Shown one piece after another: positions 24,313 to 54,282 of a stretch of 64,000 bases of DNA; positions within the stretch are counted from its first letter, which is position 1, and each line of letters starts with the position of its first letter. The translations under genes and the position numbers were made by a program. Below the pieces are notes generated by a model. The model saw only the letters and a program-made list of their open reading frames with translations. It did no database searches and was not told the DNA's origin. Origin of the DNA: Anthostomella pinea (taxonomy: Eukaryota; Ascomycota; Sordariomycetes; Xylariales; Xylariaceae). The stretch spans positions 3,410,001 to 3,474,000 of the forward strand of contig CAUWAG010000020.1 in assembly GCA_963556695.1 (NCBI GenBank), given 5' to 3'.

Positions 24313-24411
24313 GGTCTGATGGTCTAGTGGTATGATTCTCGCTTAGGGTTCGCCCTAATGCAAAAGGCGCCAGCTTGCGAGAGGCCCCGGGTTCAAATCC
24401 CGGTCAGACCC
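24313..24411 (+). tRNA. tRNA-Pro(AGG) with intron
   Basis: The acceptor stem GGTCTGA pairs with TCAGACC. The anticodon stem CTCGC (24338-24342) pairs with GCGAG (24377-24381), the loop reads TTAGGG with anticodon AGG, and the T arm is CCGGG-TTCAAAT-CCCGG. A 27-nt intron (24349-24375) follows position 37, as is normal for nuclear tRNA introns. The mature length is 72 nt. A TTTT run just downstream (24416-24419) is a plausible Pol III terminator. It is the reference for judging the tRNA-Pro(CGG) gene at 45.6 kb. Confidence 0.95.
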
Positions 24412-44780: not shown

Positions 44781-45545
44781 CTAGAGATGTATACCTGGTT
44801 ATAGCAGAACAGTGTAGTAATTGGGTGGTATATGTGACCATGGATGTACAGCCGTCTAATAGGTGGCTGCTCAACCCATACCCCGCCCTAATGTAGTGTA
44901 TCGATAAAATCATCCCTGGCCCGCTTCGTCCCGCCCGGGGGCGCATGTGCTATAAAGCCGGGGACCGAACCCGCACGGTCAGTCATTGCACAGCGTGACG
45001 TCCCGTGACAATTTCATATGGGCAGGACAGTTCTGCAGTGAGTCTGGCCGAGGGTAAAATCATGTTGGCAAAGGATAGGACCAGGTTGAGAGCGGGGTCG
45101 AATTTGCGCAGAGTAGGAACTGCCTGCAGATGGTGGGGCCGCCGGGGTCACGATAGCCGGAGAGCGGTCCGGGCGACATGCCTGGCCTCCCGGCCTCTCG
45201 GGTTTTGTGCGTGCACTCGATCCCCTTAATTCACTGCTAGTAAAGGATTCGTGACTGTATCCTGTAAAAGAGAGGCAAGCGCGTAGATGCATCCTAGACG
45301 AATGGAGGCACCGTATCTCCATTATGCGAACACGCTTCCCTCATGCGAACCTTAGGCATCAGGCCACCCACGTCCAGACCTCCATGTAGGTAGGTACCTG
45401 CGGGGAAAAAAAAAAGGGGGTTAAATCAATCCACAGAGGTAAACATTGGCAATGCCAGCCAGGGCAGGCGTAGTGAGAGAGGGAAACAGTCTGGTTGCTA
45501 AGGCGTTAGAAATTCGGAGCAGCAAAATGCAAAAAGAGTAGAAGC
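44781..45545. other. Intergenic, no gene seen
   Basis: No supported coding frame. It includes a run of ten A then five G near 45405-45420. A stretch of five A on this strand (45531-45535) provides a T5 Pol III terminator for the minus-strand tRNA that follows. Confidence 0.6.
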
Positions 45546-45697
45546 GGGCTCAGCCGGGATTTGAACCCGGGACCTGGATTAAGTTAGTTACAGCGCACTC
45601 GGGGATTGAGAGTGGCAGAAAATACCTGTCACAAATTCGCTTGTGTAGCGAAAGGGAGAAACCCGAAGCGACAATCATACGACTAGACCACTGAGCC
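45546..45697 (-). tRNA. tRNA-Pro(CGG) with the normal intron plus a second intron-like insertion
   Basis: On the minus strand the acceptor GGCTCAG pairs with CTGAGCC. The anticodon stem GTCGC pairs with GTGAC (one G-T), the loop reads TTCGGG with anticodon CGG, and the T arm is CCGGG-TTCAAAT-CCCGG. A 28-nt intron (45634-45661) follows position 37, as in tRNA-Pro(AGG). The gene is nevertheless 152 bp long: after stem base 43 and AG of the variable loop, 52 nt intervene (45574-45625) before GTC completes AGGTC. Removing both inserts leaves 72 nt, arm for arm the same length as tRNA-Pro(AGG) at 24.3 kb. TTTTT lies about 15 nt past the 3' end. The A and B boxes are intact. It may be a functional gene that needs an extra splicing step, or a recently inactivated one. 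Confidence 0.85.
45574..45625 (-). other. 52-nt GT-AG intron-like insertion in the variable loop of a tRNA gene
   Basis: On the minus strand it begins GTATTTTCTG and ends TAACTAACTTAATCCAG. It is flanked as CAG|GT...CAG|GT, contains CTAAC with its A about 10 nt before the terminal AG, and has the length of a small fungal spliceosomal intron. The donor GTATTT is weaker than GTATGT/GTAAGT. It includes TTTT, which could weakly terminate Pol III. A duplication or insertion unrelated to splicing is the alternative. Confidence 0.65.
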
Positions 45698-47055
45698 AGA
45701 TTGCTGGTTGTTGAGAATTTGCTCGGTATGACATCATATACCTGCTGGGCGGTCGCACTAAGTACCGATCAATCGTTAGCACTGAAGCCCCATCCTGAGT
45801 CGCAACTCTGCGAGGTATGCCCACACCTCTACCACCAGCACGCAAAGTTTAGCAACACAGCTTGTAGCCAACAGGCAGAAGACTGGCACAAATATCCCAT
45901 AGGCCGTCTGTGGTCTAATTCATTAAACTTTATTAATCAGAAGAAGCGTACATATGGCTTGCCAATACCTGTAGATGACCAGACTGCTTCATCTCACGTG
46001 GCCGGACCGTGGGTCTGCACCTGCAAGCTGGACTCTACCGCCCATCTACGGAGGACATAGAGAGGCAGCTGTGAGAAAATCCCCAATGCCACTGCTACCT
46101 CGACCATATTATAATTGCCAGGGAAACATGGTTATCCGCAGCCGCCGTGAGAAGCTAATTCAGAGATATGTGCGTCTCGAGGGCTGGGGACGATACTGCC
46201 TCCACTTCCCTCTCTATGCGCGACATGGTTACGGAGCGAGTACTCTGCACGACCGCCGGCTACTTTGATCACGATCGGTGGTCGTCCGAGCGGTCGTACC
46301 TCGGGCCCGGTGGTCATCGCACCTGCCAACTTGATCAACGCACTTGCCAACTTGAATCCCGGACAACGGACTTGGAGGCGGAGAGTCGACAGGAGGCCAC
46401 AGGCTCGAACATAATGTCAGGTTGGTCAAGTCGATGTTGGAGCACATGCAATCTAACATAAGCTACTCATAGTAGGATTCCACACGGTCGCGAATGCTCT
46501 GCGATTGCCCAACCTTCTTCTCAACTGCTGAACACCCAGCACCGGACGGGGTCCGGAGCTCTGAACTACATCTCTAGCCAGTAGGCACCGACCGACTGCG
46601 CCTTCTCGATGACGAGTGCGGCCGGAAGATGGCGCGAAAACCGCCGCTGCTATCGCGTCATTGTTTCGGCCGCCGGCCCTTACTTGACATGTCCTTTTGC
46701 TTTCCACATGCGACCGGCTTGTGTTTAGCCGTCACGATCTAGTACGTGGACGCGAAAGGCGGCATCGTGGGCAAGCGGGCGGTATCGCGACGGCAGCATG
46801 CAAGGTACCTTATTTCGAAGCGAAGAGGTCGTAGCTAGGGGTAGCTTACGTTCTTCGTCTCTACGAGCCTCGTCTGACTGGCTGCCCGTGGTCCGGAAGC
46901 CTATACCTACCCGACCAGACTCACTCACTACGTGCGAGAGGGAGCTGACGCTGCCGTGGCTTGCCACGACGATACACACGCTTCCAGACTTCAACCTGAA
47001 GAAGACAGTACTGAAACGACGTCAGCAAAAGTCGTGCCTAGAGAGAAGGTGGATG
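45698..47055. other. Intergenic, no gene seen
   Basis: About 1.4 kb between the tRNA-Pro(CGG) gene and a MITE. The open frames (up to about 120 codons) overlap on both strands and have no recognised motif. Confidence 0.5.
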
Positions 47056-54200: not shown

Positions 54201-54282
54201 CGACTACCGCCTGATTCGAACAGACGCCTCCGAAGAGAATAGATTTCTAGTCTATCGCATTAGACCACTCTGCCAGGTAGCC
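54201..54282 (-). tRNA. tRNA-Ser(AGA), no intron
   Basis: On the minus strand the acceptor GGCTACC pairs with GGTAGTC (one G-T). The anticodon stem ATAGA/TCTAT encloses loop CTAGAAA with anticodon AGA. A long variable arm CTC-TTCG-GAG is the class II hallmark of tRNA-Ser, and the T arm is GTCTG-TTCGAAT-CAGGC. The length is 82 nt. TTTT follows within about 10 nt. It looks functional. Confidence 0.92.

Follow-up and report, generated by a model that had tools for sequence, protein, structure and literature searches.

Putative spliceosomal GT-AG introns in nuclear tRNA genes of the ascomycete Anthostomella pinea

Introduction

In the textbook view, the introns of nuclear tRNA genes are a separate class that is cut by a protein endonuclease. 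Spliceosomal introns are found in other structural RNA genes of fungi. The U6 snRNA genes of Schizosaccharomyces pombe and other fungi carry mRNA-type introns, and Canzler and colleagues reportedly described spliceosomal introns in fungal U6 snRNA genes in 2016. Ascomycete rRNA genes contain spliceosomal introns as well. The branch site of fungal introns has the motif CTRAY and lies near the intron 3' end. U6 snRNA is a product of RNA polymerase III (Pol III), as stated for yeast in a passage of PMC5372738, and an mRNA intron in the 18S rDNA of deuteromycetes is named in a title cited in PMC11782384.

According to passages of a review of tRNA introns (PMC4090602), ectopic tRNA introns occur in Cyanidioschyzon merolae and algal nucleomorphs and are supposedly rare in eukaryotes. 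Passages of a review of permuted tRNA genes (PMC3978253) agree on such non-canonical introns. In the part consulted of the tRNAscan-SE 2.0 paper (PMC8450103), the search for non-canonical introns is described for archaea. The text of PMC4090602, as consulted, makes no mention of 'spliceosom', and a limited literature search of titles and abstract openings found no description of spliceosomal introns in tRNA genes. Here we describe a tRNA-Pro(CGG) gene with a GT-AG insertion in a 64,000-nt stretch of Anthostomella pinea DNA (the window), together with similar genes in the same genome (53.7 Mb in 16 contigs).

Results

Structure of the window tRNA-Pro(CGG) gene

The gene and its surroundings are made up as follows (window coordinates).

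45546..45697, minus strand: tRNA-Pro(CGG) gene, 152 bp, two introns; Rfam RF00005 matches with 31.1 bits and exactly these borders
45662..45697, minus strand: exon 1, positions 1-37, with anticodon CGG
45634..45661, minus strand: canonical 28-nt intron after position 37, of the tRNA-endonuclease kind
45626..45633, minus strand: exon 2, position 38 to the start of the variable loop
45574..45625, minus strand: 52-nt intron of spliceosomal type in the variable loop, GTATTT...CTAAC...CAG; the paralogue L002 has a GT-AG insertion at the same site
45583..45587, minus strand: putative branch site CTAAC, branch A 10 nt before the intron end
45546..45573, minus strand: exon 3, with the remaining variable loop, the T arm with the B box and the acceptor 3' strand
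45531..45535, minus strand: Pol III terminator-like T5, after a 10-nt gap behind the gene
45733..45740, minus strand: TATA-like sequence, 43 nt upstream of the gene

Taking both introns out leaves a 72-nt tRNA with anticodon CGG and standard pairs at 7/7 positions of the acceptor stem, 5/5 of the anticodon stem, 5/5 of the T stem and 3/4 of the D stem. The tRNA-Pro(AGG) gene of the window (24313-24411, plus strand; 99 nt) also comes to 72 nt without its canonical 27-nt intron. The canonical intron site of the window gene is the one used in four AGG, one UGG and the other CGG tRNA-Pro genes. The 52-nt intron has CAG|GT at both borders, and its 5' splice site, GTATTT, is a less than ideal fit to GTRNGT. 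A GT start, an AG end and CTRAY near the end occur together in 39 of the 127,860 54-mers of the window. The initial annotation had proposed this locus and strand, the 28-nt intron, the 52-nt insertion with its GT and AG ends, the CAG|GT borders, the CTAAC, and a restored 72-nt tRNA like tRNA-Pro(AGG). The sequence bears out each of these points. With introns allowed, ARAGORN miscalled the gene as Ser(cga).

Three other features were recorded at or near the locus. The 5-nt direct repeat CAGGT stands at the borders of the 52-nt intron, and the paralogue is without it. When the unspliced precursor is folded in silico, the anticodon loop pairs with CCCGAG of the 52-nt intron. An ordinary tRNA-Ser(AGA) gene is also present in the window (54201-54282, minus strand).

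A second tRNA-Pro(CGG) gene has the same arrangement

A DNA search of the genome with the whole window gene had a single other match, a second tRNA-Pro(CGG) gene at C2:2846265-2846434 (L002). This gene was thus found by similarity to the whole window gene and not by intron motifs. Its canonical intron measures 26 nt, and its variable loop is interrupted by a 54-nt insertion, GTGAGT...CTAAT...AAG. Because the only other CGG copy found shows the same arrangement, the window insertion is not a product of chance. A tRNA-Pro pattern with up to 3 mismatches listed seven genes (four AGG, one UGG and two CGG). The two CGG genes have the insertion, and the five others only the canonical intron. Normal CGG copies elsewhere, which had been considered initially as a sign of a pseudogene, are therefore missing among these seven genes. 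The idea of a mobile, introner-like family was not supported either, since the genome-wide search with the window gene, by a method that skips simple repeats, matched the gene itself and its paralogue and gave no near-identical copies.

We compared the two CGG genes part by part. Their exons are identical at 70 of 72 positions, and the two differences make up one compensatory pair (28-42 in standard numbering; T-A vs. G-C). In the core of the extra intron, without the signals, the likeness is that of shuffled sequences (288/500 shuffles as high). Taken whole, the extra intron of one gene resembles that of the other somewhat more than shuffles do (5/500 as high), and the same holds for the canonical intron (13/500). 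The 100-nt flanks are 54% and 50% identical. Since the exons differ in a compensatory manner while introns and flanks have diverged, a pseudogene or an assembly error is hardly likely. We infer that selection has preserved the spliced products of the two genes, along with their splice signals, and that the remaining intron sequence has drifted.

GT-AG insertions in tRNA genes for valine, histidine, lysine and alanine

Surveying the genome by motif patterns gave at least nine tRNA genes with GT...CTAAY...AG insertions, a lower bound: two Pro, three of four Val, two of three His, one Lys and one Ala. The nine insertions lie at five sites, in five tRNA species and on six contigs. A pattern of CTAAY, AG and a nearby B box (23 matches, against 22 for the reversed control) included both CGG genes. 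The same pattern reached three tRNA-Val(AAC) genes (L044, L045 and L057), by way of CTAAC in the anticodon loop and not in an intron. These genes have D-loop insertions of 54, 55 and 54 nt, and GT-AG removal gives an identical D arm in all three. With up to 3 mismatches allowed, the Val 3' half matched four genes, namely these three and one that has no such intron. In collections that hold no fungal genomes, the exact Val 3' stretch had 0 matches in viral_contigs and 0 in genome_contigs, and the Val intron junction had 0 in genome_contigs. The Val 5' stretch matched 9 viral contigs, one of which (L083) looked tRNA-like by eye and was without such an intron.

A wider spacing (36 matches vs. 49 in the control) added two tRNA-His(GTG) genes and one tRNA-Lys(UUU) gene. 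The GT-AG intron lies in the anticodon stem of the His genes, between positions 29 and 30, and in the anticodon loop of the Lys gene, between 32 and 33; all three also have the canonical intron. The His 3' half was found at four places: the two interrupted genes, a third His gene and L048. The third His gene contains the canonical intron only, and the predicted spliced junction is present in it letter for letter. L048 (C6:1505406) has a His-type T arm and matching ends; no His anticodon arm was seen by eye, and ARAGORN found no tRNA. Intron-free Lys(UUU), sought in the genome with one exact pattern, had 0 matches. The widest spacing, with 41-71 nt between CTAAY and the B box, had 24 matches vs. 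50 in the control. It gave at least one new case, a tRNA-Ala(UGC) gene that has, besides a canonical intron, one of 58 nt in the D-loop, GTAAGT...CTAAC...CAG. A canonical intron is thus present in six of the nine interrupted genes.

When CTGAY replaced CTAAY in the pattern near the B box (67 matches vs. 106 in the control), no new tRNA with a non-canonical intron was recognised by eye; the matches took in several canonical tRNA-Pro introns, and some resemble tRNA-Arg. Several candidates were rejected. The place at C2:7891286 is an ordinary tRNA whose 5' flank contains CTAAC, ARAGORN called no tRNA at C5:466955 (L076), and L073 and L074 turned out to be normal tRNAs whose intron is canonical.

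Because none of these pattern counts clearly exceeds its reversed control (23 vs. 22, 36 vs. 49, 67 vs. 106 and 24 vs. 50), membership rests on the surrounding tRNA sequence. When the Pro, Val and His families were listed by exon sequence (7, 4 and 3 genes), 7 of the 14 genes had a non-canonical insertion, with GT, AG and CTAAY in 7/7. The two His genes, the Lys gene and the Ala gene were found through CTAAY and AG, so the independent features for them are GT, the exact borders and the restored cloverleaf.

We also noted mitochondrial-looking tRNA clusters with equal scores on C2, C9, C13, C15, C16 and the small contig C1 (32.6 kb). These repeated clusters could be either recent insertions of mitochondrial DNA or assembly errors.

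Anatomy of the nine introns

The nine introns are 50-58 nt long, and all start with GT and end with AG. A CTAAY motif is found in 9/9; its branch A is separated from the intron end by 10-14 nt and from the intron start by 35-44 nt. The 5' ends are GTATTT, GTGAGT, GTGCGT, GTAAGA, GTATGA, GTAAGA, GTAAGA, GTCAGT and GTAAGT; the 3' end is CAG in all but one (AAG). GT, CTAAY and AG are kept across the diverged Pro, Val and His paralogues, and the intron cores are notably alike only within Val and within His. For comparison, the ABC-transporter gene of the window has 8 candidate mRNA introns of 51-100 nt, two of them overlapping, which are predictions picked by the same signals. Eleven canonical tRNA introns were examined. 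They are 14-37 nt long; none has the GT...AG ends (0/11), one ends with AG, and CTRAY occurs by chance in four.

Restored tRNAs and Pol III signals

The nine restored tRNAs, of 7 distinct sequences, have standard pairs at 5/5 positions in both the anticodon stem and the T stem. The restored Ala tRNA contains a U-U mismatch in the acceptor stem, and the Lys cloverleaf is a hand parse. The borders of the His introns cannot slide. We also made all deletions of 40-69 nt in eight genes, leaving out Ala, and had the products called by ARAGORN. Among the GT-AG deletions, 1/5 and 1/6 in the two His genes gave a tRNA, in each case His(gtg) and the predicted deletion. In the window gene, 1/12 gave Pro(cgg), again the predicted one. 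The right tRNA came from two GT-AG deletions of the second Pro copy and from two to four per Val gene, and ARAGORN named none of the Lys products as Lys. Pro(cgg) also comes from 571 of 2625 deletions of any kind in the window gene, so it is chiefly for His that the trial carries weight.

A run of at least four T follows each of the nine genes after a gap of 1-10 nt; the background of TTTT in the window is 687 of 18,276 25-mers. Within 80 nt upstream, a TATA motif is found at -41 to -45 in five genes and at -59 in one, and is absent in three. In the three interrupted Val genes, the A box, part of the internal promoter, is split by the D-loop intron, and two of these genes have TATA at -41/-42. 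Upstream elements may compensate for the split Val A box.

The Rfam tRNA model matched the window gene, and at E values up to 0.1 it matched none of six other interrupted genes (three Val, two His and Lys). With introns allowed, ARAGORN called the two Pro genes and the His and Lys genes Ser, Arg, Leu or SeC and missed the three Val genes.

U6 snRNA genes of the same genome

Four U6-like places were found in the genome. The highest-scoring match (L067, 65.5 bits) has no intron. Another (L069, C16:2508026) scores 39.9 bits, under the family cut-off of 44, because a 49-nt stretch, GT...CTGAC...TAG, splits ACAGAG|AAGAUUAGC. Both sides of the split fit the U6 consensus (ACAGAG|AAGAUU), and without the stretch a simple alignment scores 100 instead of 64. 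Downstream in L069 a second intron, of 55 nt, is likely: the score rises from 100 to 108, with rank 6 of 4874 for the best GT-AG deletion. A third one further down is doubtful; the best GT-AG deletion there ranks 100 of 2378, with a border one base off. L067, L068 and L070 are U6-like with a core free of insertions, and L067 starts with about four tandem copies of a 20-nt unit.

Discussion

We conclude that the 52-nt stretch is very probably a spliceosomal GT-AG intron in a working nuclear tRNA-Pro(CGG) gene transcribed by Pol III, one of at least nine such genes. The support comes from sequence: the intron position, the splice signals, the restored cloverleaf, the conserved exons (measured for the Pro pair alone), the diverged introns, the His junction, the T runs and the U6 intron. 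Of the two readings in the initial annotation, a Pol III transcript spliced at GT-AG agrees with the sequence, as both CGG genes carry the insertion and the signals are kept. The other reading, a recent insertion that kills the gene, finds no support, given an insertion in 2/2 CGG genes and their conserved exons.

It is improbable that the insertions are ectopic tRNA introns, cut by the tRNA splicing endonuclease through a bulge-helix-bulge-like fold. Passages of PMC4090602 report ectopic tRNA introns for a eukaryote, the red alga Cyanidioschyzon, and a proposal of them for nucleomorphs, and the endonuclease must cut the canonical intron in 6/9 interrupted genes anyway. At another register with the same product, the window intron also reaches a bulge-helix-bulge score of 10, a value attained by 262 of 5000 shuffles. 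At the GT-AG register, however, the two Pro and three Val introns score 7, 7, 9, 10 and 9 against null modes of 8, 7, 9, 9 and 8, and so do not stand above shuffled sequences, in a weak test where the seven ordinary tRNA-Pro introns score 9-11. Moreover, the endonuclease does not require GT, CTAAY, AG or a length of 50-58 nt, and the canonical introns of this genome do not combine a GT start with an AG end (0/11).

Slightly less credible still is the explanation that the insertions destroyed the genes and that other copies supply the tRNA. Insertions in the D or T arm of eukaryotic tRNA genes are usually read as pseudogenes, according to passages of PMC4090602; intron-free Val(AAC) and His(GTG) copies exist in the genome, and the Ala gene has its one acceptor mismatch. 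However, intron-free copies were found neither for Pro(CGG), among the seven tRNA-Pro genes, nor for Lys(UUU), by one exact pattern. The conserved and compensatory Pro exons next to diverged introns, the T runs behind 9/9 genes and the GT, CTAAY and AG retained in diverged Pro, Val and His paralogues also speak against gene loss. Finally, an assembly or sequencing artefact is next to inconceivable, given nine different insertion sequences on six contigs, all with intron anatomy.

If the GT-AG stretches are spliceosomal introns, transcription by Pol III would rely on the internal A and B boxes and end at the T run. The GT-AG intron would be excised by the spliceosome, and the ordinary intron of the anticodon loop by tRNA endonuclease and ligase. 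For His and Lys, the spliceosome would act first and the endonuclease second, because the anticodon arm forms, and with it a suitable substrate for the endonuclease, only once the GT-AG intron is gone. Probably, these genes represent a whole class of nuclear tRNA genes interrupted by spliceosomal introns, with at least five gains as judged by position. Some tRNAs (all Pro(CGG) and possibly all Lys(UUU)) would then need both the spliceosome and the endonuclease, in a fixed order for His and Lys.

If true, spliceosomal introns in several tRNA genes would break the divide between the intron classes. The spliceosome would be able to handle short Pol III transcripts that have to take on the tRNA fold as well, and translation would depend directly on its activity, via tRNA supply. 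Common tools would miss or misname interrupted tRNA genes. Because an intron-free His sister with the identical junction exists in the same genome, such genes would be natural test cases for intron gain.

The introns described here resemble several known systems in part. Compared with the canonical tRNA introns after position 37, they differ in position, length, signals and presumably enzyme. Like C. merolae and the nucleomorphs, A. pinea has tRNA genes with more than one intron, at the D arm, the anticodon stem and other non-canonical sites. The algal introns are attributed to the tRNA endonuclease or to no known mechanism and measure 3-24 nt in Guillardia, whereas those of A. pinea are 50-58 nt long and show the signals of fungal mRNA introns, namely GT, a branch site and AG. 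They share with the ascomycete rRNA introns the occurrence of an mRNA-type intron in a fungal structural RNA, although the host there is rRNA and not tRNA. As in the fungal U6 genes, a short GT-AG intron lies in a Pol III gene. Unlike U6, the tRNA host must fold, needs RNase P, tRNase Z and often the tRNA endonuclease, and has its promoter inside the gene.
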